Source: Candidatus Thorarchaeota archaeon (lineage in GTDB: Archaea; Asgardarchaeota; Thorarchaeia; Thorarchaeales; Thorarchaeaceae). From it: 35,866 nucleotides of DNA. Within the stretch, counting starts at the first letter, position 1, and every line of letters starts with the position of its first letter. Location of the stretch: assembly GCA_018238205.1 (NCBI GenBank), contig JABCTV010000014.1, positions 1 through 35,866 on the forward strand, read 5' to 3'. Of this stretch, positions 2-26,404 are shown piece by piece. Below the pieces are notes generated by a model that saw only the letters and a list, made by a program, of their open reading frames with translations, had not been told where the DNA came from and did no database searches. Made by a program: the position numbers and the translations under genes.

Positions 2-439
2 AGAAGCTCCGACGTAACTAAACCAGTTCTATCACAGCTTCCTCGCATCCTCTCGTTACTCGAAACTTTGCGTGGGTCTAAAGGTGTGCCTCGTGAAGTA
101 TATCTTGATAGTACAGAAGGTATCGCAGTTTATCTTCCTACTGGGATGAAAATTTCTGAACTCCCTAATGACCCTAAGAAGACGGTACAATTATTGATGA
201 CCATTGTTGAGGATTCATTAGAGCACCTCTTCTCCACAATGACCGAAGTGGAAGTTTGGTTTTGGAAAGCCGCTAGAAAGAAAGGATTCAGTCCTGAGAT
301 AGTCGAGAAGATGGGCAACAAGGAACCTCACTTTGATTCTTCCGAATTGATGTGGCGCTATCAGCGAATCCTTCGCAAGTATTTCTCATTGCGATTTACA
401 ATTGTACGGAGTGAAGATCTTCTACGAGTGGAGGAGTGA
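2..439 (+). CDS. Unknown protein, 5'-truncated by window edge
   Basis: The reading frame is open from base 2 to the TGA at 437-439, so the visible 145 codons are probably the C-terminal part of a longer protein. A TTG at 68 could serve as an internal start but has no convincing ribosome-binding site. The visible part is mixed alpha/beta and charged, with no membrane segment, and I recognise no family motif. A helical stretch with several Trp and Arg residues ends in an acidic tail (RVEE). The stop lies 4 bases before the GTG of the XPD-like helicase gene, and the GGAGG for that gene is inside this one, so the two are probably co-transcribed and perhaps translationally coupled. The function is not known to me. 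Confidence 0.6.
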   Translation, partial: RSSDVTKPVLSQLPRILSLLETLRGSKGVPREVYLDSTEGIAVYLPTGMKISELPNDPKKTVQLLMTIVEDSLEHLFSTMTEVEVWFWKAARKKGFSPEIVEKMGNKEPHFDSSELMWRYQRILRKYFSLRFTIVRSEDLLRVEE

Positions 440-443
440 ATGA

Positions 444-2396
444 GTGAGCACAGCCTCAAACGCGTTAGCATACTTTCCCTATACTCCTAGGTTACATCAG
501 GAAAAGGCGGTCAATCTAGCAGTTGAAGCATTCTCATCAAAGACGGTGGGTTTGCTAAGTGCAGACTGCGGGATCGGCAAGACCATCGCAGTTTTGTCTG
601 GCTATCTTGCATCTCGCGCAAATGACACTTCATCTCGATTGTTTGCTTTAACGCGAACCCACTCACAGTCCAAGGTCTTTGAGTCGGAGCTAGAAGTCTT
701 ACGCAGTGTTGACTCAAACCTGGCTGCTACAACTATGGTGAGCCGAGTTCACGTTTGCCCTATCAGGCATGAGATGGAATCCCTTAGTTCAACCGGATTC
801 ATGCGAGCCTGTGCGGGAATGATTCGAACTGGCCAATGTAACCATTACTGGAATTTGTATAAGAAAGGCTCATCCGAGGGAGGAAGAGTAACTATTCGTG
901 AAGAGGCTCATAGAGAAATTGAAGACCTACTCGATAGTGGAGTGGTCACAAGGGAGAGAGCAGAAGAACGTGCAGAGGAATTGGGGTATTGTCCTTATGA
1001 GATTATGAAACTCTGCGCCAAAAAAAGTCGAGTCATTATTGGTCCTTACAGCTACATCTTCCAGCCAAGAGTTAGAGAGGCTCTGTTGGGTTCAATGGGA
1101 ATTCCACTCCACGATGTTGACCTTTTGATTGATGAGGCTCACAATTTATCGAGTCATGTACTCGACGCAGAGACCTCTAAACTGAGTAATGACGACCTCC
1201 GATGGCTTCGCGAGAATAGTCAACTTGTTGTTCGAGAAACTGGAATGAAGTGGATCCGAGAAGCGATAGACTTCCTGTGGGAAACAATGATGCTGCACTT
1301 GGACTCCATGAATAACAAGGGTGAGCGTGTCCTTGACAAATGGGATGTAGCTCCCCGATTTCTCAAAGAAGGAGACCTCGATCTTCTGCACGATGCAGGG
1401 CGTCCCGGAATGAAGGACCCTGAAAATGCTAGTCTTGCAGAAACCCCTCTAGACCGTTTGATAGAGTTTCTTTATACTGCACAGAAAGCATCAAGAAGCG
1501 ATGGCTGGCATGTTACGATTCAAATCAAAAAATCCTGGCAAGAGGAGGGGCCTAAGTCAACATCATCACTCATGATTCAACCCTTGAACGCAGCAGGTCT
1601 CACAGCACCGATTCTCAGGGGTGCTCGTTCTGCTGTTTTGATGTCAGGCACTCTACGACCACTTGATCACTATGCCCGCCTGCTAGGAGTTCCAGGTGCT
1701 CTATCTGAAGATCTCTCGAGTCCTTATCCCCGAGGAACTCGTCTTGTCATGATCGACAAGAGAATAAATACGCGCTATAAGATGAGAAGTCCGGAACTTT
1801 GGAGAGAACTTGCAAGTCGTATCTCCTCTGTATTGAGTTCGATGCCTGCAAACAAGAGTGCTCTGATTGCGTTTCCCAGCTACAAGATGATGGCTGAAAT
1901 AATGAGTTACTCAATTGATACAGGATTTCGGGAAACTATAGTTGAAACCCGAGGGGCTCAACTCGATGATGTTGCAGAAGCTCTTACTACTGGACCTCAT
2001 GCAATGTTCTGTGTTTTTGGGGGGAAATTCTCAGAAGGAATTGATCTGGTTAAAGATGGGTCCAGTATGATTGACTTGATTATTGGTGTTGGAATTCCAT
2101 TCAGCCCACCGACATCATATCAACGTGCGCTTCAAGATTGGTACAACTCAAAGTTCGGACTGGATTCTGGATATTATTATTCTTCAGTTGTCCCTTCAAT
2201 TCGACAGGTTGCACAACTAGTTGGCCGTCTTAGAAGGTCTCCAAGCGATTCTGGTGTTGTTGTACTTCTTGACAATAGATTCCTGAAACACATGCTTGTC
2301 TTTGGTGACGAGATTGTATCAGACGTCTGGCTCTATGAAGACGTTTCAGAAATCAGAGAAGCTATTACACAATTCAATGAAATGAGGGTGGGATAA
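444..2396 (+). CDS. xpd: XPD/Rad3-family 5'-3' DNA helicase with Fe-S domain
   Basis: This is an ATP-dependent SF2 helicase of the XPD/Rad3/DinG group, which translocates 5' to 3' on single-stranded DNA. Seen in the 650 residues: a Q-motif-like YTPRLHQ (13-19), Walker A ADCGIGKT (40-47), and DEAH (about 230-233). FGGKFSEGIDL precedes motif VI, QLVGRLRR (about 591-598). Four cysteines (105, 123, 132, 183) sit between motifs I and II, the placement of the 4Fe-4S cluster ligands in XPD. The length matches archaeal XPD. The GTG start at 444 has GGAGG about 10 bases upstream. An ATG at 440 is in another frame. It is the first complete gene of the plus-strand series and precedes a membrane protein by 5 bases. 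Whether it is the cell's only XPD or a system-specific paralogue cannot be told from the window. Confidence 0.93.
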   Translation: MSTASNALAYFPYTPRLHQEKAVNLAVEAFSSKTVGLLSADCGIGKTIAVLSGYLASRANDTSSRLFALTRTHSQSKVFESELEVLRSVDSNLAATTMVSRVHVCPIRHEMESLSSTGFMRACAGMIRTGQCNHYWNLYKKGSSEGGRVTIREEAHREIEDLLDSGVVTRERAEERAEELGYCPYEIMKLCAKKSRVIIGPYSYIFQPRVREALLGSMGIPLHDVDLLIDEAHNLSSHVLDAETSKLSNDDLRWLRENSQLVVRETGMKWIREAIDFLWETMMLHLDSMNNKGERVLDKWDVAPRFLKEGDLDLLHDAGRPGMKDPENASLAETPLDRLIEFLYTAQKASRSDGWHVTIQIKKSWQEEGPKSTSSLMIQPLNAAGLTAPILRGARSAVLMSGTLRPLDHYARLLGVPGALSEDLSSPYPRGTRLVMIDKRINTRYKMRSPELWRELASRISSVLSSMPANKSALIAFPSYKMMAEIMSYSIDTGFRETIVETRGAQLDDVAEALTTGPHAMFCVFGGKFSEGIDLVKDGSSMIDLIIGVGIPFSPPTSYQRALQDWYNSKFGLDSGYYYSSVVPSIRQVAQLVGRLRRSPSDSGVVVLLDNRFLKHMLVFGDEIVSDVWLYEDVSEIREAITQFNEMRVG

Positions 2397-2401
2397 ATCA
2401 A

Positions 2402-3004
2402 ATGAAACTACACGATATACCTGAGCTAAAATGGATGACCCTCACAGTCTTTCTATCTGTTCTATTAATCAAGTTCTATTATGCGCCAACTGACATACTT
2501 GGTTTGGTTATCTCCGGAGCTGCAGTTGGTATCTTTATTGTAGTTTTATCATTGCTACTGACAAATGTTCCAAAACCTGATGTGTTCTGGGACAAGGAAC
2601 GAAGTTTAGCCGCCATTCTACGCCCTTGGACTATTGAGGTTAGCTCTGCAAGGCTTCTATCGAGTGTCCCTATCGGAATCGATCTGAGTCATTCTGGACA
2701 GAAGGTTCTACAATCCATGTACACTCGATTTTCGGATAAAGCTGGCGGCACTCTTGTATTCTTCATTACACGACCCAAAGGAAATCAATCGACAAAGATT
2801 GGCTTTCTTGTCCGTCGAAGAGGTTTGAGGCTCTGGAATGGAATGCTAATGGTTGACCGTTTAGCCAAGAAACTTGCAGTTGATACCCTGATTCTTGAGA
2901 GGTCAATGAGAGCATCTTATCCACACTTACCAGTAGAGGTTGCAAAATTCGAAGATATACTGAAAGTAACTACAGGAGGTTTAGAAACCCATGCAATCGC
3001 ATGA
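2402..3004 (+). CDS. Unknown protein with two N-terminal membrane segments
   Basis: This 200-residue protein has two predicted membrane helices close to the N-terminus (about 11-28 and 32-55). A soluble domain of about 140 residues follows, in a beta-rich then alpha pattern, so the domain is probably cytoplasmic and membrane-tethered. I recognise no family. The ATG lies 5 bases after the XPD stop, and the 3' end overlaps the next gene by 14 bases, which argues for co-translation. The two-helix N-terminal layout resembles that of the HerA-like protein two genes on, and the two could be partners in one membrane complex; that is inference from position only. Confidence 0.8.
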   Translation: MKLHDIPELKWMTLTVFLSVLLIKFYYAPTDILGLVISGAAVGIFIVVLSLLLTNVPKPDVFWDKERSLAAILRPWTIEVSSARLLSSVPIGIDLSHSGQKVLQSMYTRFSDKAGGTLVFFITRPKGNQSTKIGFLVRRRGLRLWNGMLMVDRLAKKLAVDTLILERSMRASYPHLPVEVAKFEDILKVTTGGLETHAIA

Positions 3005-3284
3005 ACCGCGTTCTGGTGTGGAAATTCCTGATGGTGTAAAGGAAGAAGACATCATGAGGTTTCTTGCAATCGGTCACGGTTACAAATGGACCGTTCTTAC
3101 TCGGAAACCTCTCTTGGTAGCACACGGTTCACCAACAATTGGTGACATGCCAGAGCTACTATTGACTGGGTCAAAGCCGATGGTTGTTTCTGGCGGCGAT
3201 ATCATTTACGTTGAAAGGATTCGTAATGTCCTCGAGATGCTACTTCGTCAATCTCACAGGGTTCAATTCACAAAGGAGGACTAG
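2991..3284 (+). CDS. Small unknown soluble protein
   Basis: This is a 97-residue protein without signal peptide or membrane helix. The central part alternates short beta strands and turns (LLVAHGSPTIGD, KPMVVSGGDIIYVERI) and then a helix, as in a small alpha/beta domain. I do not recognise a family. The ATG is inside the end of the preceding gene (14-base overlap), and the stop is 2 bases before the ATG of the HerA-like gene, whose GGAGG lies in this gene's last codons. The tight packing suggests a subunit or accessory factor for the neighbouring membrane proteins. Confidence 0.7.
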   Translation: MQSHEPRSGVEIPDGVKEEDIMRFLAIGHGYKWTVLTRKPLLVAHGSPTIGDMPELLLTGSKPMVVSGGDIIYVERIRNVLEMLLRQSHRVQFTKED

Positions 3285-3286
3285 AA

Positions 3287-5641
3287 ATGTCTAAAGGTAA
3301 TATTCTAGGCACTAGACCAGAAACTGATCCATTCGAAGAATCCCCCGGGTCACATTTTTCTGTTACATCCAATGTCGAGTTAAAATGGGACAATAGGAAA
3401 CAACGCATACCTCTTGCTCTTCCATTATTCTTGATGACCATCAGTATAGCATTTGGATTCTACTATCCTATCCTCCTGCTAATCTCTGGAATATTGGCAC
3501 TACTTAGGATTTTGATAGTTCCCAGTCTTCGGTCCGGATTTGAAAGACGCTCATTAGAGAGTAGTCCGTGGAAGCAAGTTCAGCTTACAGACACATCATG
3601 TTCATTGTCAGATGATGGTAAGCATGTTAGATGCAAGACTCCCACTGGCACACGTAGTCTAGTTAACCTGACTCTTACTGATGCGAGGTCTCTCCTGATA
3701 GGTGATGTCAGCTCCTTCGTTCGAGCTGTTGATGATGTTGACGGTTTTTGCTTAACAGTAACCATGCGACCTGAGAAGATACAGCGAGCTCTTGATCAAG
3801 AACGTATTCCGGACGGCATGGAGAAATATTTCAATTACTTGACAGAAGGAGAGTTGGATGCATACGTTCTCCGGCGGGGAGGTATCTGGGTAACTCACGT
3901 AAATGCAGTTGGTCATGTTAAAGATGAAGCAGGTGTAAATAATTTCGATTCTGCAGTTCGTGCATCAATTCCAATGGAGAAATGGAAACGAGCAAAAGCC
4001 AGGAATCTACAATCTAGGATTGATCAACTGGATGTAGATGGTCAGTGGGCTTGGTTCTTTGCCGCAGGTGAAGAGCTCTCAGAATGGCTTGTGCAACTCA
4101 AGTCTGAGTTAGCTTCTGAAGTAGGGAGTAATATCCCCGGTCAATTTCTTGCTCCTATCCGAGGTAGACCAAGTGATTATAGATTAGGAGTCACAATCAA
4201 TCCTGATACACTACAAACAGGTCCAATAGCAGGAATTGCCCATTCAGAGTTGGAAACTGGCTTGTTGCTCTGTGGTGGTACTTCAAGTTCGCGAACAAGG
4301 GTACTTGCCCTATTAACATCAGAACTTCGCCGTTCAGGAAAACGGGTTATCATTGTTACAAACAATCCCGATTCAATAGGACTAACGCGACTCTCTGAAA
4401 GTGCAGTTCATCTTGAACTTGGGCGAGACCTAGTGTTGAACCCAGTTGATGCAGAAGGTATCCATCGAAGTGAATTCGTTCCTCTCATCATGTCCTCACT
4501 TGAAGCAGTAGCTGCAGCAGACCTTAGAGGTGCCGCTGATTTAGAAGCTGCTATTGGTCGTGCAGTCACTTTAGGTAATGCGACTCTTGCTGATGTCCAC
4601 ATACCCACTGGTCTTGTCGATGATGCTCTATCAGGTCCAATGGATGCACAGAAGCCTCCAGAGCAGCTTCCATCCAAGAAGTCAATGACTGGTTTTGAAG
4701 CAGTAAGGTCTCTGTACGAGGGATCCGCAGCGAAAGCATTCTACGGGACACAATCTGTTCCTACTTCTCGACTCGTTGAACCGGACCTTTGTGTTGTGAA
4801 GATCGCCATGGGGTCGACTTCTCTTGAACACTTTGCATGGAATCTCATCAGCATCAAGATTGCTGGACTTCGACCAGATCCCAACCTAGTGGTCATTCTT
4901 GACGGTGCCGAAAATATGCGAGTAAGGAATCGAAGATACATGAAGCACGATTCCTTTACTGAGCGGGTCCTCAAGAGACTGAAGAAACGAGGACCACTTG
5001 TTGTAGCTCTTGAACATCCAGTTGACTTTGCCCCAGGTGCGCTTGCTGTTCTTGAATCATGTATATCCCTTAGATTAAGAGAATCTGTGGACATTAAGAT
5101 CGCAGCTGACGTACTTGGTCTTAACGTAATTACAACAGGTATGCACACAAAAGCTAGGATTTCACCACGAGAGTCATCGTACTTGCGAATAATGGGTGAT
5201 GATACCGCGCTCATTGTACACGATGGAACTGAAACCTGTCAGCCAATTAGACTCGACCCTGCCCTAGACCTTAGTCCCGATTTTGTTGCGAGTGAAGAAA
5301 CACGTAGGGTCACATCTCTGACTGATTCTGGTTCACCTGATAATGAGGGGTCACTATTAGACAGAGTTTCTGCTGGAAGTACAAATCTTGCTATTAGAGT
5401 TTTGAAATTACTAGAACGTTATGAGCCTCTAACTGAGGAAGCCGTTCGTCGTTTCATTGCTTCTAGTGGATCAGACAATGACCCTGATGTTGAAGCAGTA
5501 CTAGCCCGCCTGGAACACGCAAGCATGATTCTGAAAGGTCATGAAACTCATAGTGGGGTTTCATACACTAATTATAGAATAACGATGAAGGGTAGCATGG
5601 CACTGAGACAGACCGAAGGAATGGAGGGCGCTACTGTATGA
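3287..5641 (+). CDS. Membrane-anchored HerA/VirB4-like protein with degenerate P-loop
   Basis: The 784-residue protein has two N-terminal membrane helices (about 38-56 and 57-78), a middle domain, a RecA/FtsK-HerA-type core (about 320-640) and a C-terminal winged-helix-like domain (about 690-775). The core keeps the family layout: a strand and P-loop position reading GGTSSSRT (about 330-337), then VIIVTNNPD, a LVLNPVDAEG segment as in HerA/VirB4 proteins, and a Walker B position reading VVILDGAEN (about 536-544). The P-loop Lys is replaced by Arg with no GKT/S, and the acidic residue after the Walker B Asp is Gly, so ATP hydrolysis looks impaired or lost. The next gene overlaps by ATGA. Membrane-anchored HerA/VirB4 ATPases include conjugation motors and crenarchaeal CedB (DNA import). 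The assignment rests on motif order, not on a profile search. Confidence 0.6.
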   Translation: MSKGNILGTRPETDPFEESPGSHFSVTSNVELKWDNRKQRIPLALPLFLMTISIAFGFYYPILLLISGILALLRILIVPSLRSGFERRSLESSPWKQVQLTDTSCSLSDDGKHVRCKTPTGTRSLVNLTLTDARSLLIGDVSSFVRAVDDVDGFCLTVTMRPEKIQRALDQERIPDGMEKYFNYLTEGELDAYVLRRGGIWVTHVNAVGHVKDEAGVNNFDSAVRASIPMEKWKRAKARNLQSRIDQLDVDGQWAWFFAAGEELSEWLVQLKSELASEVGSNIPGQFLAPIRGRPSDYRLGVTINPDTLQTGPIAGIAHSELETGLLLCGGTSSSRTRVLALLTSELRRSGKRVIIVTNNPDSIGLTRLSESAVHLELGRDLVLNPVDAEGIHRSEFVPLIMSSLEAVAAADLRGAADLEAAIGRAVTLGNATLADVHIPTGLVDDALSGPMDAQKPPEQLPSKKSMTGFEAVRSLYEGSAAKAFYGTQSVPTSRLVEPDLCVVKIAMGSTSLEHFAWNLISIKIAGLRPDPNLVVILDGAENMRVRNRRYMKHDSFTERVLKRLKKRGPLVVALEHPVDFAPGALAVLESCISLRLRESVDIKIAADVLGLNVITTGMHTKARISPRESSYLRIMGDDTALIVHDGTETCQPIRLDPALDLSPDFVASEETRRVTSLTDSGSPDNEGSLLDRVSAGSTNLAIRVLKLLERYEPLTEEAVRRFIASSGSDNDPDVEAVLARLEHASMILKGHETHSGVSYTNYRITMKGSMALRQTEGMEGATV

Positions 5642-7836
5642 GTACGGTCTCAGATGATGTATCATCTCAAGTGACCAAATTACTCAACCAAGCTGGGATG
5701 AGACCTCGTGGAGTTCAGAGCGATTCTATCTCCAAGGGGCTCCTCGAAGGTGAGAATATCATGGTGTCCTCACCTACAGGCTCTGGAAAAACTTTGGTTG
5801 GAGAGATGGCACTTCTAAGAGCTGTTACTTGTGGTAAGAAAGGTCTCTTTCTCGTTCCACTTAGAGCCCTAGCGGTTCAGGTCTTCAAGACGATGAAAGA
5901 ACGCTATGAACATCTTGGCGTCATGATTGGACTGAGCACAGGAGATTTTCAGGGTACAGGTGAAGAGTTAGCAGAGTTCGACATAGTAGTGACTACGTAC
6001 GAGCGAGCAGATTCACTTCTGCGTAGACGGAGTAGTTGGCTCTCTGACCTTGGCTCCATTGTTGTTGATGAGATTCAGACGATGTCTGAAATAGGAAGAG
6101 GAGCACGACTTGAGAGTCTAATAATCAGGCTGAAGAACTCAATTGAAGATTTGCAGATTGTTGCTCTCTCAGCAACCACCGGAGACCCTGACGAGGTTGC
6201 AGAGTGGCTAGGATGTCAGCTTGTGGTATCTGAAGAGCGACCTGTTCCCTTAGTTCACAAAGTAGTGACAACCAACAATAGAAATCAAAGCCTCAGGAAA
6301 CTAGTCATGACCACAGTGCAAGGGAATGGTCAAGCTATTGTATTCCATCGAACAAGACGAGAAGCCGAGGCTCAAGCAAAGCGATTGTCTGAGGATGTTG
6401 GAAGGCAGTTCACTTCTGAGGAGAAGAAGAACCTGGATCAAGACCTGGGGTCGGTTGAAAATTGGGATGTTACATTATCACCAGAACTAAGGTCTCTATT
6501 GCACAACGGAATCGCATTTCATCATGCAGGACTTGGCTACAACGAGCGAAGATTGGTTGAACGCCTATTTGGAAAAGGCGATGTTAAAGTCATATGCGCA
6601 ACAACGACCCTTGCAGCAGGTATGGATCTTCCAGCTCGGACTGTGATTCTTTCAAGCTTCAAATCTCCAGCAGACTACAGACGACTCCTCTCTGCAAATA
6701 CCGTCCATCAAATGTTGGGAAGGGCAGGGAGACCGAGTCATGATAAGATTGGCTTTGGCGTGATTTTGGCTGGGAGCACGGGTGAAACTGAGGAAGCAAA
6801 GCGCAGATACTTTGATGTCATTGTTGATGATAATAACGGGAAGGAGACCCTAATTCCCAAGTATGACCGCATCAATAGTACACTTGGCCAAGCAGGTTCA
6901 CTTTCCGAACAGCTTCTTGTTGTTCTAGATATGCTAGGTGCTGCAACCATTGAAGAAATTGAGAATGGAATAATGGGTGATTCATTCTTGGTTCACTGTG
7001 CAATAAGAGACTCAGGAGCACCAATGAGAGTGCTACAACTTGGAGAGATCTCTGCTAAGATAGTGCTAGAGCGACACGCACTTCCCGAAACTATCCAGTC
7101 TGCACGTAAGAGCGTGTTAGGCAAGACCATTCTGCGTGAGAAGAATGAAACCGTAATCGGTGGCATTGTCATAAGTTATGATGGTGGTCAATTCACATGT
7201 CGATTTTCTGCTAGATTGTCAACTAGTGGTACAGTTGAGGGACCAATGTGTTCGTGCGGAACTCCTGTCAATGAAAATGGAATTCTCTGTCATCATCTTG
7301 TAACTCTAGGTATGGCTGCAGCCGCTGAGCTTGGGAGTATGGCTGATTATGTGATTCCATTATCACTATCCGAGTCAAGTCCACTCGGTCTGCTCATTCG
7401 CTTAAGATTAGTTGAGGGTGCAAATGATGGGGAATTTAAGCCAACCAAACTGGGTCGGGCAGCGAATCGATTATACTTGAGTATTCCAACAGTAAGAGAG
7501 ATTCTTGCGATGCTGCCTAATACTGAGAGTAGTACAAGCTTACTCTGGCTATTACGACATGTAATCTCTATCGAAACTGGAACAACAGTCGACGAATCTT
7601 TTGACAATTTGTTAGGTTCTCTAATTACTACTGACATTTCACTACAGGATCTTGCTGCTCAGTTTGGTCTGAGTATTGGTGACGTCTACGGATTGCTAGA
7701 TACATCAAGGTGGCTTTTACACTCTATCTCGGTACTAGCAGAATTGGGAGGATTGGCAAGAGCCTTTGAACTATCACAAGGTCTTGCTGAGGCATTGGAT
7801 AATAGATTAGGGCGCAAGAACGAGGAGGATGACTAA
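5638..7836 (+). CDS. Hel308/Ski2-like SF2 helicase with SWIM zinc finger
   Basis: This is an ATP-dependent SF2 nucleic-acid helicase of 732 residues. Visible motifs are Walker A SSPTGSGKT (44-52), motif Ia LVPLRALA, motif II DEIQ (144-147), and motif III LSATT (about 175). Motif V is ATTTLAAGMDLPAR and motif VI QMLGRAGRP (about 358-366). Hel308 proteins normally have DEIH or DEVH, so DEIQ is a variation. After the helicase core comes a SWIM-type zinc finger: C538-x-C540, then C551-x-H553 (CSC...CHH), a fold known to bind DNA or protein. A helical C-terminal region without Cys follows. Its ATG overlaps the stop of the HerA-like gene (ATGA), and a GAGGAGG near its end serves the next gene. It probably unwinds or remodels DNA together with the XPD-like enzyme and the FEN1-like nuclease of the same series. 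Confidence 0.9.
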   Translation: MSTVSDDVSSQVTKLLNQAGMRPRGVQSDSISKGLLEGENIMVSSPTGSGKTLVGEMALLRAVTCGKKGLFLVPLRALAVQVFKTMKERYEHLGVMIGLSTGDFQGTGEELAEFDIVVTTYERADSLLRRRSSWLSDLGSIVVDEIQTMSEIGRGARLESLIIRLKNSIEDLQIVALSATTGDPDEVAEWLGCQLVVSEERPVPLVHKVVTTNNRNQSLRKLVMTTVQGNGQAIVFHRTRREAEAQAKRLSEDVGRQFTSEEKKNLDQDLGSVENWDVTLSPELRSLLHNGIAFHHAGLGYNERRLVERLFGKGDVKVICATTTLAAGMDLPARTVILSSFKSPADYRRLLSANTVHQMLGRAGRPSHDKIGFGVILAGSTGETEEAKRRYFDVIVDDNNGKETLIPKYDRINSTLGQAGSLSEQLLVVLDMLGAATIEEIENGIMGDSFLVHCAIRDSGAPMRVLQLGEISAKIVLERHALPETIQSARKSVLGKTILREKNETVIGGIVISYDGGQFTCRFSARLSTSGTVEGPMCSCGTPVNENGILCHHLVTLGMAAAAELGSMADYVIPLSLSESSPLGLLIRLRLVEGANDGEFKPTKLGRAANRLYLSIPTVREILAMLPNTESSTSLLWLLRHVISIETGTTVDESFDNLLGSLITTDISLQDLAAQFGLSIGDVYGLLDTSRWLLHSISVLAELGGLARAFELSQGLAEALDNRLGRKNEEDD

Positions 7837-7838
7837 CA

Positions 7839-9494
7839 TTGGAGTCTGAAACGATCAATAAAATCAAAGAAGACAAGGAAATCAAGAATGAAACCACAGA
7901 AGAAAAAGAAGACTATGATATTGAAACTGCTCTAAAGCTGACTGAACACTTTACAAGTAAGTATCCAAATGGACTTACACTAGGAGTAAGACTGGATGCT
8001 GTTCCAGGAACAAAAGGTGTTCACGTCGATATCGTTTTTGTTCTTGATCTACGGAAGGCTGAATTTGGAAAAGGAGGTCTCGCCATGCGTGCAGCAGTGC
8101 TGGAAACCGTAAACAGGGACCTTGAGAGAATTCTCAGTGATGTAGGTTTAGCTGGTTTCCTTCGTGAGCAGAGTGTGCTAACACCATTTGGGCGTGTGCG
8201 GCTTCCACTCATGCGCGGAATGAAAAATGACTCTCTTTCATTGATGCACGAAACACGTACTGTTTATGTCATCACAGAGAGTGCAAAGCCTTCAGCAGAC
8301 CTTACATGGCTAACTGAAACAGGTAGAATTGTTACAGCAGATCAATTTGCGCTTATACGACAGAGCGATGCAAGATCAAAACTCCCTGATTTGAAGAAGA
8401 GTGTAGAAGGTAGTAAGTGGAATCTTTTAGAAACAGGGATATCAAGAGGTTGGTTCGGAGTGCTGTCATTGCTAGCTCTTGCAATTGGTCTCTCATCACT
8501 CATCGCGGTCATTCTCGCAGGTTCTGGTTCTATGTTGATTCCCGTTATTGCAAGTGCCGCTGCAGGTGCAGTAGGTGGGTGGCTCTTGAGTTCATCCCGT
8601 AATTCAATCTCATCATTTGTCGAAACCTTAAGCAGAGAACAAGAGCAGCTGAGAACAGTTGGTGATTCCTCAAGAATCACAAAATCAATCGAGGAGAACG
8701 AAGAGAAACTTCAACTCATTGGTCATGTGAATTTTGTAATATCTCCACTAGTCGCTGAAGCCGCAGCGGCAATGAAGAATAGCAATCTCGAAAAAACTGT
8801 TAACATTTCATGTACTGTTCTTGACGAGTGCGTAAGACTATCTCCTGCTGAGGCCAGCTCAAAATCTCTTTTGATGGGTGACAGTGGACTTCGCAAATTT
8901 ATAGGCCTCTTTGAATACTTAGGCGGTAATGTCGAAGAGGAGAAGCTCGCACTGGGTTATGTTGGGCTCACTGGGCACTTACTTCGCCCTATCAACTTTG
9001 GTGAAGCGGTATCTCATCTGACTGAACTTGTCAATTCTCTCTACAACATTGGAGCGCTTAGACCCGACATCAAAGAAGGTATTGACGACCATCTAAACTT
9101 CGGCTCAATGAAGGAAACTGAGGAAGCGTTTGCTAAGGAATTGGCAAAAGAGCCGGATCTCAGATTTGATGTTCCCAGTGAGAATCCAACGTCAGCTGAA
9201 GTAGATGATGAAGAGGAAGGAATGCTTTCGCCTGCGGAAAATACGGAGGAACAATCTGATCAATTGAAAGAACTCACCGAAGAGATTCGTGTTTCTTCAT
9301 TAGAAGAAGAAACTCCCGCACCTCCTGTCGAAGAGGTAGTTGATGATTCCCTCGACGACATAGTACCTGGTTCCGTCATTGCTGAAGGGTGTGAGAAGAA
9401 GAAAAAGAAAAAGAAATTGAAACCCAGGGATGTAGAAGAGTTACCTGTTTACGAAGGATATGATCATCCCCAGGGGGAAAGTGCTGGTGTCTAG
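7839..9494 (+). CDS. Unknown two-TM protein with acidic linker and basic tail
   Basis: The 551-residue protein starts at TTG 7839, supported by GAGGAGGA 9 bases upstream. The N-terminus is strongly charged (Lys/Glu-rich), followed by an alpha/beta domain (about 25-195) and a hydrophobic pair of membrane helices (about 205-255, with an Ala/Gly-rich turn). A helical domain (about 265-435), a long Glu/Asp-rich disordered linker (about 440-520) and a run of seven Lys with one Leu near the C-terminus (KKKKKKKLK) follow. The layout is that of an anchor or scaffold. The acidic linker and lysine cluster could contact DNA-binding partners or DNA, but that is inference. The end overlaps the start of the RecA-fold gene by 35 bases. 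I recognise no family. Confidence 0.78.
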   Translation: MESETINKIKEDKEIKNETTEEKEDYDIETALKLTEHFTSKYPNGLTLGVRLDAVPGTKGVHVDIVFVLDLRKAEFGKGGLAMRAAVLETVNRDLERILSDVGLAGFLREQSVLTPFGRVRLPLMRGMKNDSLSLMHETRTVYVITESAKPSADLTWLTETGRIVTADQFALIRQSDARSKLPDLKKSVEGSKWNLLETGISRGWFGVLSLLALAIGLSSLIAVILAGSGSMLIPVIASAAAGAVGGWLLSSSRNSISSFVETLSREQEQLRTVGDSSRITKSIEENEEKLQLIGHVNFVISPLVAEAAAAMKNSNLEKTVNISCTVLDECVRLSPAEASSKSLLMGDSGLRKFIGLFEYLGGNVEEEKLALGYVGLTGHLLRPINFGEAVSHLTELVNSLYNIGALRPDIKEGIDDHLNFGSMKETEEAFAKELAKEPDLRFDVPSENPTSAEVDDEEEGMLSPAENTEEQSDQLKELTEEIRVSSLEEETPAPPVEEVVDDSLDDIVPGSVIAEGCEKKKKKKKLKPRDVEELPVYEGYDHPQGESAGV

Positions 9495-10152
9495 AAGTTC
9501 CTTGATGACCTCTTTAGGTCTAAGAGGCCTCATACATCTGTGGGGAAGTGCTGGTGCTGGTAAGACGCTACTTGCATGTGCACTTGCTGGTGATGCTTCG
9601 AAGCATGGTAGAGTTGAATGGATTAACACTGATGGGAAAAAGAGCTTTGTAAGTTATCTCAAGAGAAACATTGACTCCTCTGGAGGAGAAGTGGAAAATG
9701 TCACAATCACAATGACTGATGACCAGTCTGAGCTACTAGAACTGATTCGAACACTTCCAGATTCAAACCTTCCATCTTTGATAGTGATTGATCCGATTAC
9801 TAGAGTCTTGGACCTTGCCCGTGACGACCCAACTCTTTGGGGTCAAGAGATTGTTGAAGATGTACTTCCTACTCTTGCAGGAATCGTGAGTTCGAATGAC
9901 TTGGACATTGTGATTACCAGTGAGAGTAGAATGTTGGGCGATTCTGGTAATCGTGCTGTCCATCATAACACCATTGCAAAATGGATAGATCACGACCTCT
10001 GTCTCAATAGGGATATGTCAGGGTCTCTTACACATATAGTTCGAAAGATAGAGGATACTGAACAAGAAACCGCACAACTAAGGGTGGATGATACGGGAGC
10101 CCTCACGATTATTCCTAGTGTCTTCCATTCTCGAGTTTCTGAAGGAGTTTGA
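9460..10152 (+). CDS. RecA-fold ATPase (RadB/KaiC-like)
   Basis: This compact single-domain RecA/Rad51-superfamily ATPase has 230 residues, close to RadB length and shorter than RadA. Walker A is GSAGAGKT (29-36) and Walker B LIVIDPIT (about 106-113). The strand-loop VEWINTDGK (about 50-58) matches the RadB/KaiC pattern after the P-loop helix. There is no N-terminal helix-hairpin-helix domain as in RadA. RadB-type proteins modulate recombinase or Holliday-junction enzymes, and a similar role is likely here. The start is not certain: ATG 9460 lies 35 bases inside the preceding gene with only a close GAAGGA before it, and ATG 9505 is possible. A second RecA-fold protein without a P-loop is encoded two genes later. 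Confidence 0.85.
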   Translation: MIIPRGKVLVSRSSLMTSLGLRGLIHLWGSAGAGKTLLACALAGDASKHGRVEWINTDGKKSFVSYLKRNIDSSGGEVENVTITMTDDQSELLELIRTLPDSNLPSLIVIDPITRVLDLARDDPTLWGQEIVEDVLPTLAGIVSSNDLDIVITSESRMLGDSGNRAVHHNTIAKWIDHDLCLNRDMSGSLTHIVRKIEDTEQETAQLRVDDTGALTIIPSVFHSRVSEGV

Positions 10153-10156
10153 TTTC

Positions 10157-11107
10157 ATGCTTGGGAAAGGAATAATGAAGTTAGTTGGATATGCAGTTAC
10201 TGGAGCCATAGCATTGATTGTGGGTGCTGAGTTACTTGCTTCAGTTGTATCTATTGTTTTAGCTTTCAGACTTGGAAATTTCTCTCCTCTACTTGTGGTC
10301 ATTGTTCTGACAGTGGTCCTACTACTTATTGTCAATCGAGTATCAGAGGACTCTCCAACTAGACTAATCCTCAATGTCTTTGGTTATGCAGCTATCAGCT
10401 ATCTGGTAGTGGTTGCATTTGTCATTGTGCTACCGTACGGACTGATTTTTGCTGGAATTGCAGCAGGCACAACAGCAGGGATTTGTTCTTTCATTAAGGA
10501 CCCCGGTTCACTCAACACTCAATTTACACAATTCATCTCACAGATGCAAACTGCGGGTTCATTGAATGGAATCCGACAGAGAGTTGTTGCGGTTGGTGAA
10601 GGAGAGTCATTCAAACTGAACTCATTTCACAATATACTGCTTATTGAGAAGGGGGGAAGAGAAAAGATAATTCAAATGATGCGTGACCGTCCCCTTTTAC
10701 CAGTTTCACTGACTTGTTATGTTGATTGTGATGTGCTCTTCATTTCTGCAAAGTTTGACCAGATAATCAACTTGATCACTAATCTTGGGATTGAAATAAG
10801 AAATACATCTCCACTCCTTGCTGAAGCCATTCAGATGATTCCAATAATTGACTCACAGAATGGATTGAAAATGGACACCTATCGTCTAGCACGAGATGAG
10901 AAATCAATCACTGAGTTGCTCTCCCTTGCACCAACAAGAATGACGGTATTTCCAACAATATCCGGTTTAGTTGTTTTAATTCCAGATATGGATGCTCCGG
11001 GATTACTAGTTGAACAATTGGAGCAAGGTACGGAGGCTGATGTATTATTGCACCGAAATTATTCTTTGCTTGAGGAGGTAGAGAAACCCGTTGAGACTGC
11101 CGCTTGA
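10157..11107 (+). CDS. Unknown four-TM membrane protein
   Basis: I chose ATG 10157 because GAAGGAG lies 10 bases upstream. An ATG at 10088 in the same frame would overlap the RecA-fold gene by 65 bases. From 10157 the protein has 316 residues: four N-terminal membrane helices (about 8-35, 42-60, 71-92, 93-110) followed by a soluble alpha/beta domain of about 200 residues. That domain has an internal pattern of two similar strand-rich halves (near LPVSLTCYVDCDVLFISAKFD and MTVFPTISGLVVLIPDMDA). No family recognised. It lies between two RecA-fold genes, and its last codons contain the GAGGAGG for the next gene, so it probably anchors or regulates one of them at the membrane. Confidence 0.78.
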   Translation: MLGKGIMKLVGYAVTGAIALIVGAELLASVVSIVLAFRLGNFSPLLVVIVLTVVLLLIVNRVSEDSPTRLILNVFGYAAISYLVVVAFVIVLPYGLIFAGIAAGTTAGICSFIKDPGSLNTQFTQFISQMQTAGSLNGIRQRVVAVGEGESFKLNSFHNILLIEKGGREKIIQMMRDRPLLPVSLTCYVDCDVLFISAKFDQIINLITNLGIEIRNTSPLLAEAIQMIPIIDSQNGLKMDTYRLARDEKSITELLSLAPTRMTVFPTISGLVVLIPDMDAPGLLVEQLEQGTEADVLLHRNYSLLEEVEKPVETAA

Positions 11108-11810
11108 ATCTATAGATACAATCACTGAACCCCAAATTCGTTTACGCCCGAGAATCTTGAACAATACGATTGGTGAGTTGTTCGTACCTCAGCAGATCAG
11201 TCTATTTCATGGTTCGGAGAGAGCACCATTGAGCATTCTAGCTCATACTGTCATTGTATCCGCGGCTAAGATGAGAACCGCGTCTTGCGTCTTTCTTGAT
11301 TCAGGAACTAATTACAGTACACCTCTCGTAAAATCCCTTTGTCAATCAAATGCCGAATCATCCCAGGTGTTAGAGAAGATTGTTGTAGCACAGGTCTTAG
11401 GCCTTGCTGATGTTGTTGAGAAAATTGAGATGATTCATAACTTCGGAGAGGTCTCAATTGTAGTCCTTGACAATCTAACTGGAGCCCTCAATCTAACAGG
11501 AGCTCCGGGAACTAAGGGTCGTCAAAGAAATCTGTTTGGAGCGCTCGACAAAATTAGAAGAGTGATAAATGAACTTGATACTCATGTTATGATTACAGAT
11601 CACTCCTCCCGAAATTGGACCTCAGAGCAGCCCATCCCAATTGGTGGCAATGTTCTATCTCATGCAGTGGATAGTGTTGTTCAAGTTGATCGACTCCGTC
11701 AAGGCGATGATGTTGTAAGAATTTTAGTGGAACGTTGTGCTCTTCCATCAACGCCGCCTGGCGTAATTGTAAAGATTGGAGCAAAAGGAATTCGTAGCAT
11801 AAGGTGCTGA
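11091..11810 (+). CDS. RecA-fold protein lacking a P-loop (RadB-like pseudo-ATPase)
   Basis: The protein has 239 residues from TTG 11091, with GAGGAGG about 11 bases upstream and a 17-base overlap with the preceding gene. The fold pattern follows RadB/Rad51. A strand leads to LFHGSERAPLSILAH where the GxxxxGK[TS] loop should be; Gly, Lys and Thr are gone. CVFLDSGTN follows at the post-P-loop strand, Walker B-like VVLDNLT (about 123-129) is kept, and HVMITDHSSRN and VDSVVQVDRLRQGDDVVRILVERC match the later RecA-core strands of RadB. ATP hydrolysis by this subunit is unlikely. By analogy with Rad51 paralogue pairs, it could dimerise with the intact ATPase encoded at 9460; this is inference. It is followed directly by the FEN1-like nuclease. 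Confidence 0.75.
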   Translation: MRLPLESIDTITEPQIRLRPRILNNTIGELFVPQQISLFHGSERAPLSILAHTVIVSAAKMRTASCVFLDSGTNYSTPLVKSLCQSNAESSQVLEKIVVAQVLGLADVVEKIEMIHNFGEVSIVVLDNLTGALNLTGAPGTKGRQRNLFGALDKIRRVINELDTHVMITDHSSRNWTSEQPIPIGGNVLSHAVDSVVQVDRLRQGDDVVRILVERCALPSTPPGVIVKIGAKGIRSIRC

Positions 11811-11816
11811 TTGATT

Positions 11817-12812
11817 ATGGGTGTGAAGAATTGGGGAGATGATATCATTCCGTGGCAGTGGAAATCTTCCTCAGAGATAGCACCTGGAACAATAGCTATT
11901 GATGTCCCCAATTATCTTTCTCGTCGAATCTCAGTAATCCGCCAAAACCCCGGACAGGAAGGTCGGCTACCCCTTACACATGTCGGGCTCTTCGTCAGTC
12001 TTGTCAAGGTCACTCTAAGCAATCATGTCCTGCCTGTGTTTGTTTTTGATGGTCCTCCAGAAACCATGAAACGAAAACCAAACCCTGGCCTAGTTCAAAA
12101 AGCCTCTGAGCTTTACAAACAATTCCAGATAGACAGAGACCCCTATGATGAAGATCTTGCTACAGTATTATGGAAGAGTCCTGCTCTTCGGGCTTACTTT
12201 GCTGCAGAGCATATGAGAGACCTAGGCAGAATAGTTGGGGTTCCTGTACTTACCTCTCCATCAGAAGCTGAAATGTTTGCTGCTGTATTATGTAGAGATG
12301 GAGTTGTTAAAACCGTGGTTTCTAATGATTCAGATGCACTTCTATTTGGTAGCCCTCATGTAACAAAACAAATGCAGTTGTCCAACAACAAGATTCTGAG
12401 AGCAACCTTGAGTGATTTCGAGAATCATCTTCAGTTAGACCTTGAGCATCTAAGAGACCTCGCAATAGTTTGTGGATGTGACTTTCATAAAGAGGGTGTT
12501 AAAGGAATAGGCCCCCGTCGTGGTTCCGTGCTCCTGCAAAAACATGGAGGTCTCGAAGGTTTGCTTAAGGCAAGAGGATTTCTACCCGGTGAGCGTGACG
12601 AGTATATCGAGGCCAGAGAAGTATTTGACGAACCCTCCTATATGTCTGCAGATAAGATGGAGTTCAAGTTGAAGCCACCATTGATTCCCAAAGTTCTTCG
12701 ATCTCTTGAAACGGTTATGCCCGCAGAACGAGCTGAAATAACTACTCAGAAACTGACCAATCTATGGCGTTCTTTTGGAAATCGTCAATCAACTCTTGAA
12801 CAATGGCTCTAG
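11817..12812 (+). CDS. FEN1/XPG-family flap endonuclease with PCNA-binding box
   Basis: This structure-specific nuclease cuts 5' flaps in replication and repair. All catalytic acids of FEN1 have counterparts: IDVPN (first Asp), FDGPPE, PSEAEM (two Glu), SNDSDALLFG (two Asp) and CDFHKEGVKGIGP (last Asp, then the helix-hairpin-helix). The C-terminus is QSTLEQWL, a classic PIP box for the PCNA clamp. I chose ATG 11817 because FEN1 begins Met-Gly and the Gly sits in the active site; a TTG at 11811 would add two residues. The length, 331 residues, is usual for archaeal FEN1. The region after the first beta strand differs from ordinary FEN1 (NWGDDIIPWQWK), so this may be either the housekeeping enzyme or a paralogue. 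It ends the plus-strand series and converges on the minus-strand gene 1 base away. Confidence 0.93.
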   Translation: MGVKNWGDDIIPWQWKSSSEIAPGTIAIDVPNYLSRRISVIRQNPGQEGRLPLTHVGLFVSLVKVTLSNHVLPVFVFDGPPETMKRKPNPGLVQKASELYKQFQIDRDPYDEDLATVLWKSPALRAYFAAEHMRDLGRIVGVPVLTSPSEAEMFAAVLCRDGVVKTVVSNDSDALLFGSPHVTKQMQLSNNKILRATLSDFENHLQLDLEHLRDLAIVCGCDFHKEGVKGIGPRRGSVLLQKHGGLEGLLKARGFLPGERDEYIEAREVFDEPSYMSADKMEFKLKPPLIPKVLRSLETVMPAERAEITTQKLTNLWRSFGNRQSTLEQWL

Positions 12813-14784: not shown

Positions 14785-14869
14785 CTTCACAACTCAGTAT
14801 TCATACTTCTACTTATCATTATAGGCTCATCAAATAGGAGCTTATTAGTGTCATCCAATACTCATTATT
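14785..14869. promoter_or_regulatory. Divergent promoter region
   Basis: This 85-base gap separates two genes reading away from each other. On the minus strand, TATAATG (complement of about 14816-14822) lies about 35 bases before the ATG at 14784. On the plus strand, an A/T-rich CTTATTAG (14840-14847) is about 26 bases before ATG 14870, which would give a leaderless transcript. Neither gene has a Shine-Dalgarno sequence here, consistent with leaderless starts. No clear operator palindrome is visible. Confidence 0.45.
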
Positions 14870-15671: not shown

Positions 15672-16313
15672 ATGTCCGAAACCCAAAGCGGGTCATGCAA
15701 AGGAGGTCTGGCATTGCAATATGATATAGGATCAATGCTCGTTCTTAACTTGGTATTTTCAGTGAAGGTCGCGCCAGCTGTTGTATTCACGGCTACTTTG
15801 ATACGTTCATTGATATTATTATCAGGGAATAAGCGAGTGTTTAGAGCCTGGACAAGAAATGCGTTGCTATCGGCAGTTAGCATCATATTCTTCCCAGGTT
15901 CGATAGTCAATACTGCTGTCAGATATGCTGTCTGCTCGCTGTTCAGAATTGACCTGAAAGGTGTTGCCGCCGGGAGTACGTACGCAGAACTAAATCTATT
16001 CCTGAAAGTGGATTCTCCTCCCAGGGTAGTAGTATTAATTTCTGCTCTGTTTGTTAGCACTATTGCATCTGTGTTCATTGGATTCTCTCTTCTTTTCCTT
16101 CCTGTCGTGCTTCTTGCAAATGCGCCAGTTTACTTACTATGCTGGTATCTCTCTCTTGCAGTACTCTTCAATAGTTCACTGAAAGGAGGGGATGTTTCTC
16201 TTCTTGGAGCCGCATTGCAAAAGCATCAAGGGAAAGGACTAGCAGAACTAGTTCTTGCACTATCAGTCTTGATAGTATTCTATAGCTTCGTCGGCGTGGG
16301 GGTCGGGGTATGA
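15672..16313 (+). CDS. Small multi-TM membrane protein, unknown
   Basis: The 213-residue protein is dominated by hydrophobic segments: about 21-46, 60-85, 116-150 (probably two helices) and 190-212, joined by short basic loops such as GNKRVFRAWTRN. The frame was chosen over the overlapping minus-strand frame (15527-16078) because only this one gives a regular membrane-protein pattern with positively charged loops. No transporter motif is visible. The start at 15672 has no ribosome-binding site, and other starts upstream in the frame are not obvious. It precedes the giant surface-protein gene by 169 bases and could serve its export or anchoring, which is only a positional guess. Confidence 0.55.
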   Translation: MSETQSGSCKGGLALQYDIGSMLVLNLVFSVKVAPAVVFTATLIRSLILLSGNKRVFRAWTRNALLSAVSIIFFPGSIVNTAVRYAVCSLFRIDLKGVAAGSTYAELNLFLKVDSPPRVVVLISALFVSTIASVFIGFSLLFLPVVLLANAPVYLLCWYLSLAVLFNSSLKGGDVSLLGAALQKHQGKGLAELVLALSVLIVFYSFVGVGVGV

Positions 16314-16482: not shown

Positions 16483-19400
16483 ATGAAACGCATTGCTCTA
16501 TCTCTACTCTTGGTCTGCATGATATTTGCTAGTATCCAATTCACAGCTGCTCCTGTTGAGCTGGGGCTGAATGATATTGATGTTCAAAATGATCTGAAAG
16601 ACCTCGGAACTACTTCAGCAGATACTGGAGTGACGGTCTCCAATAATCCTTACATTGTGCTGGAGCTTGTTGGAGGAGATATCTCCAATCATGGTACTGA
16701 CTGGTCTACACTGCTGAATTCTATGGGCATACCAAATTCCGTGCTACAAACTAGTGATGTTCTTGCTGACCCCTCACTGTTACACGATGTCCCTGCTGTG
16801 ATCATTGATGGCAGTCTTGGTTCATCCAGTGGGAATGCCGTTTCACAGAACATAGTGGATATTCTGATTCAAGAAGACATCACTCTGATACTTACCGGAC
16901 GTTCGGCTTGGTTGCTTCATCGGCTATCAGCCCGAAGTCCACCCTCTCAGACCGCTTCTGTTGCGACAATCTTGACTACCGAGTCTGGATATGCAGGAGC
17001 GGTCTTCCTATCACAACCAGTTCCTTTGACAATTGGTTCAACACTAAGTAATGAAGCTGGTCTAATCCTTCCAGTTGATACTGTTCAGACTGAGATGTCC
17101 CGGCTGGTCAATCTGACAGGAAGTTCAATTTCCACCACGGCCCCATTACGATACGATTCTTGGCCGCTAGATGTCTTTCTGTTTGCATATGAAGACCCTA
17201 CTCTTCTCACTTCAACAGGTGAAGGTCTCTTAGAGAACACGGTGGCTTATTGTAATGCAGTTAGAGAAACTGCAACTACAACTAATCTGGCCACCTTTCA
17301 AGCGTCGGAAGGAGAACTACTCGCAGGCGGTTTCAGTTATGACCATGCACCTCTCATTGTATCGGTTTACTATGCAGTTCACACAGCTTCAGACCTTCTC
17401 GAAGGAACTGCTTGGACGAATTGGATTGTAGACAATACACCTCTAGTTCGTGATATTCTTAATGACCTCATGATTGACTACGGTTCCGAAACTGGTTTCA
17501 TGACTTCGGCCGCTGATGGAATCGTCAGTTGTCAAAGTACCGCACAAGGACTCTGGGTTCTGACGACCATGGGTTTCTCTGCTGAGTTTCCAGAAAGTGA
17601 AATTGTCCAATATCTCAGTTCACGACAAGAAGTAGCAGGCGGGTTTGATAATTATATTACAACAACCTACTATGTCACTGAGGCTCTGGCTGTTTCAGGT
17701 CAACTAGGTGAGATATCCACATATGATCTTGAGCTATTTTTGAGATCTCTTGTTATTGATGGTTCAAAAACAGGTGACCCCGATCTTTGGGGTTCAATCG
17801 GCTCAAATCCGACCAGCATCTCTCCACGGACAAACTATGCTTCAGAGTATCTAAGGTCTCTTGCGTTCATAGGATTGGCGCATCCTGATCCAGCAAAGCT
17901 GACAAGTTGGATATTGACACGAACTGCAAATGGGGATGGGTCTTTTAGAAACACAAATGGTCCAGATGAAGAGATTGTAACAGGGACAGCGTCAGCATTG
18001 GCAACCATGCAGCATCTTGGAACCCTCAGCGCTGAGAATAAAACTGCAGGTCTCGCTTGGTTCTCCAATAACCAACTTGGATCTGGCGGTTTTGGGATGA
18101 AACCTGCTACAGATGATCTTGTTGCAAAAACTAGAGAGACCTCAAGGGTGGCTCTCTGTCTTGAATCTCTTGGAGAGACCTCAGGCGGGATTGCATCTGG
18201 AATCACAATCTTCATTGACTCAATTACAACTAGCGTTGGATTCGAAGCAATGGACATTCTTCCATCACTCATGTGGACCAGCTGGCTTCTAGAATCTAGC
18301 CGCTTAGTACATGCACCGCTGGTCGACCTGAACCTTGCAGCTGACTATCTTAACGGGTTTGACAGTCTGAACGTCTATCCCTTTTGGTCAAATCTAACAA
18401 CCGTGAGTGCATCTGAGTATGGGTTCAATCAGTACCGGACAAAGAGTGTCTGGACCCAATACTTTGGGACTAGTGTAGTAAATGCACTTGGGATAAATTT
18501 TGACTCGACTATGATTTCTGGTATCACACTCTATCTATCTCAGAGCCAATACATGACTGGACATTATCGTCCAACCTCTATCATGGGAACTGCCCATATG
18601 CAGTATTCAGTGGCTGCTGTAGAGACCTTGTTCTTACTTGATGAGCTGGCCACAATTCCTTATCGAGCAGCCCTAGAGACCGCTATCCTTTCCGAGTACA
18701 GCTCGGGAAGTTGGGATACAGCAGGATGGACCCTTGAACCATTTGCTGGTTTCCAAGAGGCCATCGATTTTCTATCAACTCGCGCAGCTATTAGACTTGG
18801 AATTGTTACTCCAACAATGGCATCTGAGATTACCGCTTCAATTGAATCTCGTATTCAATACACAGACCTCACGGCACTGAGCATGGATGTAGCTACACTC
18901 TCTCTTCTCCATGCATCAGATTCTTCCGTCAATCTTGATTCTGTAGATACTTCCACAGTTCTCAGTGCTTTGAGGTCATCACACTTCAGTGATGGCTGGT
19001 TCAATAATAGTGTACTCTGGCAACCTGTTTTTACTCAAAGTGTTCTCAAGATGGTTTCAATTCTTGGACTCCGATGTGAACTCTTTGATACTCCTGGTCT
19101 TGGTCTGAGTGCAAGCGCAAGTGCGAACACCGAGCTTGGTTCAACCCTTGATATCTCAGTAAGTATCTCTTCTTCAGAACCAAGTCATACTGTTATTGTG
19201 AATGCATTCGGTGAAACTACGCTCTTTACAAATGTCGCCAATTCAGATTCTCTCTCGCTACCTGTTCCGTCAAGTCTAGAAACCTTAGGTTCATGGACCG
19301 TTTTTATCATGGTACAAGATTGGGGTTCATCTCGTGCATATGACACACTCACTGTGCAGGTTGAAGGAACTCTTGAAGGCTCTCTTGATATTGAAACACC

Positions 19401-26268: not shown

Positions 26269-26298
26269 TATTCGTAAGATACGTAACGAAATTGGGCT

Positions 26299-26309
26299 AT
26301 ATGTATAAT
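26299..26309 (-). promoter_or_regulatory. TATA box for the 24301 gene
   Basis: On the minus strand the bases read CATTATACATA. The centre is about 26304, and archaeal transcription normally begins about 25 bases downstream, here near 26278. That is some 10 bases before the ATG at 26268, fitting a nearly leaderless mRNA and supporting the shorter start. Confidence 0.45.
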
Positions 26310-26404
26310 GTGTTAGTTGTAGAATGGTGTACAACTTATAGAAAAACAATATTGTGTGAGGTGGAAGCTTACTAGAAGATTCACATCCTCACTGATTCTA
26401 TTTC

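Follow-up and report, generated by a model that had tools for sequence, protein, structure and literature searches.

A conserved thirteen-gene series in Thorarchaeota joins second-copy recombination enzymes to predicted membrane proteins

Why should genes for helicases, recombinase-like proteins and a flap nuclease be interleaved, in one direction and almost without spacing, with genes for membrane proteins? The question is raised by contig JABCTV010000014.1 of a Candidatus Thorarchaeota archaeon (assembly GCA_018238205.1), whose whole stretch of 35,866 nucleotides we call the window. Asgard archaea are the closest archaeal relatives of eukaryotes, and to our knowledge their mode of DNA exchange and recombination is not known. 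A preliminary description of the window had proposed a membrane-linked DNA-processing series containing a HerA/VirB4-like protein, with conjugation and DNA import as parallels. Comparison with related genomes, all of them metagenome-assembled genomes (MAGs), upheld one co-inherited series of DNA-processing and membrane genes, but not the HerA/VirB4-like protein, here called E, as a motor.

Eleven + strand open reading frames (ORFs) pack positions 2–12812, neighbours being spaced by +6 to −35 bases, much as first described. The window is one complete contig (C215) and its 5′ end falls inside the first of these genes, A. Because the contig opens within A, two further genes fall outside the window; RadA2, a Zn-ribbon gene and the 5′ part of A of the same genome sit on contig C122. 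In relatives, the order runs from a GH3-like gene on the opposite strand through Y, Z, RadA2, the Zn-ribbon/winged-helix-like gene (ZnR), A and XPD onward. The full unit of thirteen genes, RadA2-ZnR-A-XPD-C-D-E-F-G-H-I-J-FEN1, kept this order, contiguously for the genes present, at 25 of 25 loci in the Thorarchaeota family, with the complete set at 13 of them. Whether the genes stay together in relatives had been put forward as the test of the series; they do, and the constancy of order rules out a chance origin. From the overlaps and the conserved order we infer that the series is co-transcribed. The ratio of non-synonymous to synonymous substitution rates (dN/dS) was 0.04–0.19 for B–E and G–K, showing these genes to be under purifying selection.

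The unit was apparently missing from 20 of the 47 family genomes, partly owing to contig breaks, and parts of it are present in G009, G023 and G036 despite the apparent absence. Clean absence was demonstrated only in G006, where L_658, the usual successor of FEN1, comes about 15 bases after Z. Because Z and L_658 are joined in this way, and because G006 has neither RadA2 nor the SWIM helicase and carries RadA, Hel308, FEN1 and XPD each as a single copy, the whole 13-gene block is gained or lost as one unit.

The RadA2, XPD (B), SWIM helicase (F) and FEN1 (K) of the unit are divergent second copies, with canonical ones elsewhere in the genome. Canonical RadA was found in all genomes tested, canonical FEN1 and XPD in the genomes tested (the FEN1 of G048 scoring under the cut-off) and canonical Hel308 in the tested Thorarchaeota genomes, while the unit versions score far under the equivalog cut-offs. 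Gene product K, at 126 bits against a cut-off of 352 bits, is thus a FEN1 paralogue; its catalytic acids and PCNA-binding tail are conserved, the tail being degenerate in a few relatives. RadA2 likewise falls below the RadA equivalog cut-off and is therefore a paralogue, in which the HhH N-domain, RecA core and Walker A and B motifs are all present. One branch (support 96/99) split the operon-linked FEN1 copies of six Asgard families from the canonical ones, and RadA2 was separated similarly in the RadA tree (93/90, subject to long-branch warnings). Identity within given genome pairs was 47–69% for RadA2 compared with 82–88% for the canonical RadA1.

Pfam and NCBIfam agreed with the XPD, SWIM helicase and FEN1 identities first proposed (DEAD_2/Helicase_C_2 for XPD, a Hel308-like helicase with SWIM for F, and XPG/FEN1 for K) and placed H and J among RadB/RadA-like RecA folds; scans of both databases gave no curated family for the remaining unit genes of the window. 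Catalytic residues are conserved in XPD, FEN1, H and RadA2. The proposed pairing of an active with an inactive RecA-fold protein also stood: H is the active protein, with an SGKT-type Walker A in all relatives, and J, which has lost its Walker A, is the inactive one. In F the SWIM motif CxC..CxH is invariant, and the last SWIM position is only partly kept, as the final A of CxC..CxHxxA occurs in 11 of 19 family sequences. A mobile-element origin was rejected, as no full-length F relative occurred in viral contigs or plasmids, which gave generic helicase cores only. In the window's own genome, RadA2 (G000:C122, L180) is 78% identical to that of G002 (L031) and 59% to that of G013 (L023), and XPD shows the opposite pattern (88% to G013 and 57% to G002); these mismatched affinities reflect either a RadA2 allele swap or an assembly chimera.

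Downstream of the unit come L_658 and often M, and then N and O. O, a protein of about 2,600 amino acids (aa), stood downstream wherever a unit-bearing genome kept this locus with enough flank (13 loci, L110, L111 and the window); at one of them, L199, N was missed. G006 lacks N and O while keeping L_658, M and an R-like gene, so that the unit and the N-O block are absent together. As L_658 points the other way, N-O is a companion block and not part of the same transcript, and the system probably extends downstream to N and O in this sense. No thioester motif (C.EQ) was found in O. Other families place ectodomain proteins within the cluster itself. In family f6 (L045), a 1,081-aa ectodomain protein with a toroid, Ig domains and a transmembrane (TM) segment heads the run H, a five-TM protein, F, and then two small TM proteins followed by E (TM, TM, EN-EC); its homology to O extends over the toroid, at 60% probability only. 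At the f11 loci (L046, L088, L089 and L096) RadA2 and E are separated by the gene for an M28-fold ectodomain protein, and in L044, too, E has an M28 protein beside it. Such independent ectodomain arrangements point to a system that would face the cell exterior.

The same enzymes could serve the cell's own chromosome, in a membrane-tethered centre for recombinational repair or fork restart to which the surface proteins are chance or mechanical neighbours. Every cytosolic enzyme fits recombination and flap processing, FEN1 has retained its PCNA-like tail, and L_658 separates N-O from the unit. We nevertheless consider this unlikely, since a canonical copy of each enzyme is already present and RadA2 is far more divergent than RadA1, unlike a housekeeping factor; moreover, O and N are missing along with the unit in G006, and ectodomain proteins occur inside the same cluster in other families.

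What, then, does the HerA-like protein contribute? Its fold was borne out by comparison of E with canonical Asgard HerA (hhalign 98.1%, E value 7e-14, 333 columns), and a Lokiarchaea-like E homologue matches the HerA/DUF87 Pfam model. E homologues were read from some twelve Asgard families; none of them has the Walker A lysine (GxxxxGK[ST]), and most have GG....R instead. Because the P-loop is lost in every relative, E cannot be a DNA pump of the HerA/VirB4 type. The several membrane proteins first described were recovered, with segments predicted from hydropathy in C, E, G and I of all relatives. Neither I nor N had Pfam relatives, I had none in the PDB, and there is no NurA among the unit genes. 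Encoded elsewhere is an active-type HerA-family protein of 1,250–1,310 aa with its P-loop intact and TM segments at the N terminus (L148, L150; G000:C89:73335), the best single-sequence match of E; this TM-HerA is a possible partner or ancestor of E and a candidate power source.

These features could also be those of a domesticated remnant of conjugation or of a type IV secretion system, similar to Ced/Ted, with its VirB4/HerA motor either inactive or helped by an active paralogue, for which the TM-HerA of L148/L150 is a candidate. The architectures of C (TM and N domain) and E (TM, N domain and HerA-like domain) do parallel CedD and CedB (PMC11868833), and an active TM-HerA that best matches E is available elsewhere. 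With E lacking the P-loop in every relative, no VirB4 match among solved structures, and no pilin or VirB6-like protein recognised (pilins were not specifically sought), we regard this derivation as improbable.

Outside the family, E-type and F-type proteins occurred together in 55 Asgard genomes, alone in 14 and 8, respectively, and neither was found in 104 (Fisher p = 2e-24, in a test that ignores shared ancestry and uses match lists copied out by hand). The two genes lie at most 25 kb apart in 36 of the genomes outside the family. The clusters of other families combine RadA2, FEN1, ZnR, XPD, RecA-like proteins and small TM proteins in different orders. Other genes adjoin E there: E is followed by the gene for a TM protein that ends in a thioredoxin-like domain in f16 (L094, where the protein also has a HEPN domain) and f5 (L050); NifH-like/nitrogenase-like genes stand directly beside E in f6 (L045) and f12 (L092); and three conserved genes adjoin E in the Lokiarchaea-like f2 (L083-L121), one of them (605–796 aa) encoding a TM hairpin, with an N-terminal HhH in L119. 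A fusion of RadA2 to TM segments in Lokiarchaea (hhalign 93%) is not claimed, as the alignment is at least partly over HhH and the sequences read have no obvious RecA core. To the preliminary description, these comparisons add the upstream RadA2 and Zn-ribbon genes, the second-copy nature of the enzymes, the link to N and O and the Asgard-wide spread.

Could such a cluster instead be a membrane defence, in which O or its counterparts sense virus entry, the helicases and FEN1-like nuclease destroy incoming DNA, and the pseudo-HerA is a scaffold? The fast divergence and the clean loss as a unit would suit such a role, F and B have Hachiman-like and DinG-like PADLOC scores, respectively, and a CRISPR-like array (L048:29-1290, G039:C5; 17 near-identical repeats spaced by about 76) lies directly upstream of one RadA2-E-FEN1 cluster. 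We find it decidedly improbable, however: the PADLOC scores are of generic helicase type, with one weak ATPase score and no specific match of any other part; destruction needs no strand-exchange protein with two paralogues; the chromosomal position is near-fixed across the family, unlike that of an island; and FEN1 removes flaps rather than degrading genomes.

How does the unit compare with known systems? Ced and Ted are DNA-import systems of Sulfolobales and Thermoproteales (PMC9905601, PMC11868833), and DNA imported by Ced serves recombinational repair (PMC11868833). Like the unit, they have a membrane HerA/VirB4-type protein, a polytopic membrane protein, two-TM proteins and a link to homologous recombination, so that Ced remains, as first suggested, the nearest functional parallel. 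Their motor, however, is described as powering import, whereas E lacks a P-loop. Dedicated RadA, XPD, SWIM helicase and FEN1 are absent from Ced, as is any counterpart of the surface giant O. The HerA-NurA end-resection complex shares the HerA core fold over the 333 columns aligned with E, but E is membrane-bound and without a P-loop, and the unit has a FEN1-type nuclease in place of NurA. In the Shu complex, SWS1-SWSAP1 pairs a SWIM protein with a Rad51 paralogue (PMC6316741); the unit similarly co-encodes a SWIM finger protein, Rad51-family paralogues and a recombinase, a parallel that lies in the co-encoding, although its SWIM domain is inside a Hel308-like helicase, and membrane proteins and a nuclease are added. 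As in bacterial ComEC/ComFA/RecA natural transformation, the unit would couple membrane uptake to recombinase loading. System-specific PADLOC models gave no match beyond the generic helicase-type scores and the one weak ATPase score. The enzymes are of known families, whereas features that define Ced/Ted, HerA-NurA, ComEC competence or PADLOC systems are missing from the assembly. No published description of the unit was found in the literature searched, from which most subscription papers were outside scope, in keeping with the initial impression that no operon of such content had been described.

Together, these results indicate that the series probably encodes a membrane-bound recombination unit. 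More tentatively, and with confidence a little short of even, we favour an envelope-anchored, dedicated homologous-recombination machine, most likely acquiring or exchanging DNA; uptake of DNA as its purpose is a plausible but still tentative proposal. Several observations weigh against this interpretation. Clean loss of both the RadA2-FEN1 and N-O blocks is known from one MAG (G006); G034 (L039), a single-contig genome, carries a unit that lacks RadA2 and whose Zn-ribbon gene, beside an ABC transporter, is truncated; G036 keeps F–K in another context with no N-O nearby; and L_658, in opposite orientation, stands between the unit and N-O. The unit lacks a powered translocase, since E has no P-loop in any homologue read, as well as a recognised pilin or VirB6-like protein, and ComEC was found in 0 of 12 Asgard genomes. 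The membrane segments throughout are hydropathy predictions only, and AlphaFold models of E and C from three sequences reached predicted local distance difference test (pLDDT) values of 31 and 40.

In the envelope-anchored machine that we favour, with enzyme roles taken from their protein families, O would act outside the cell in contact with, or capture of, a partner cell or DNA, and C, E, G, I and N would form a platform or channel tethering the machine to the membrane, in which E would serve as a ring or scaffold that does not hydrolyse ATP, or would be partnered with an active motor encoded elsewhere. RadA2 would coat single strands arriving at the platform, its filaments helped by the mediators H, J and the SWIM protein F. 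XPD (5′-3′ polarity) and F (3′-5′ polarity) would remodel duplexes, and FEN1, recruited through PCNA, would trim flaps as the strand joins the chromosome.

The features of the window are collected in Table 1, in which the likely starts of I and K (10157 and 11817) are used. Two proteins of about 660–680 aa and of no recognised family, encoded on the opposite strand at 12814-14790 and 24301-26349, bracket N-O, and related proteins of about 650 aa recur around the locus in relatives.

Table 1 Genes of the unit and its downstream companions in the window.
Feature	Position	Strand	Basis and remarks
A, 3′ part of a ~205-aa protein, fold not recognised	2..439	+	No Pfam match; kept in 21 family loci; 5′ part on contig C122
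B, XPD/Rad3-type helicase, second copy	444..2396	+	Pfam; Walker A, DEAH and four Fe-S cysteines conserved
C, two-TM protein; cytosolic domain with weak similarity to the N-terminal region of E	2402..3004	+	Hydropathy; hhalign 80%, E value 1e-5
D, ~97-aa protein, no curated family	2991..3284	+	dN/dS 0.19
E, pseudo-HerA: N-terminal TM hairpin, P-loop-less HerA-fold domain, winged-helix-like C terminus	3287..5641	+	Profile comparison, hydropathy; Loki homologue matches Pfam DUF87
F, Hel308-like helicase with SWIM zinc finger, second copy	5638..7836	+	Pfam/NCBIfam; CxC...CxH invariant
G, central TM hairpin protein	7839..9494	+	Hydropathy
H, RadB-like RecA-fold ATPase, Walker A intact	9460..10152	+	Pfam/NCBIfam; SGKT-type motif in all relatives
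I, N-terminal four-TM protein with cytosolic domain	10157..11107	+	Hydropathy; longest ORF start 10088
J, RadA/Rad51-like, Walker A lost, Walker B Asp retained	11091..11810	+	Pfam/NCBIfam
K, FEN1-like flap nuclease, second copy	11817..12812	+	Catalytic acids conserved; PCNA-binding-like C terminus; longest ORF start 11811
N, downstream companion of ~200 aa, about five TM segments predicted	15672..16313	+	Hydropathy; missing at G006 locus
O, 2604-aa predicted surface protein, downstream companion	16483..24297	+	Signal peptide; alpha/alpha toroid; numerous Ig-like domains; most relatives with a C-terminal TM; missing at G006 locus

The unit would be a concrete, testable candidate for DNA exchange in Asgard archaea, with four core enzymes duplicated and tied to the membrane and apparently to the surface. 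It includes a whole HerA-fold family that has no ATP-binding loop yet is strongly selected and, as the eukaryotic Shu complex does, naturally combines a SWIM protein with Rad51-type paralogues. In its most far-reaching form, which we rate as somewhat unlikely, the proposal is of a new, Asgard-wide genetic-exchange apparatus in which a surface giant or ectodomain receptor would be joined by a membrane platform, built on a pseudo-HerA ring, that hands DNA directly to recombination enzymes of its own (RadA2 and Rad51-type paralogues together with the SWIM helicase, XPD and FEN1) for sex-like exchange. If true, the archaea closest to eukaryotes would have a dedicated recombination pathway for sex-like DNA exchange.

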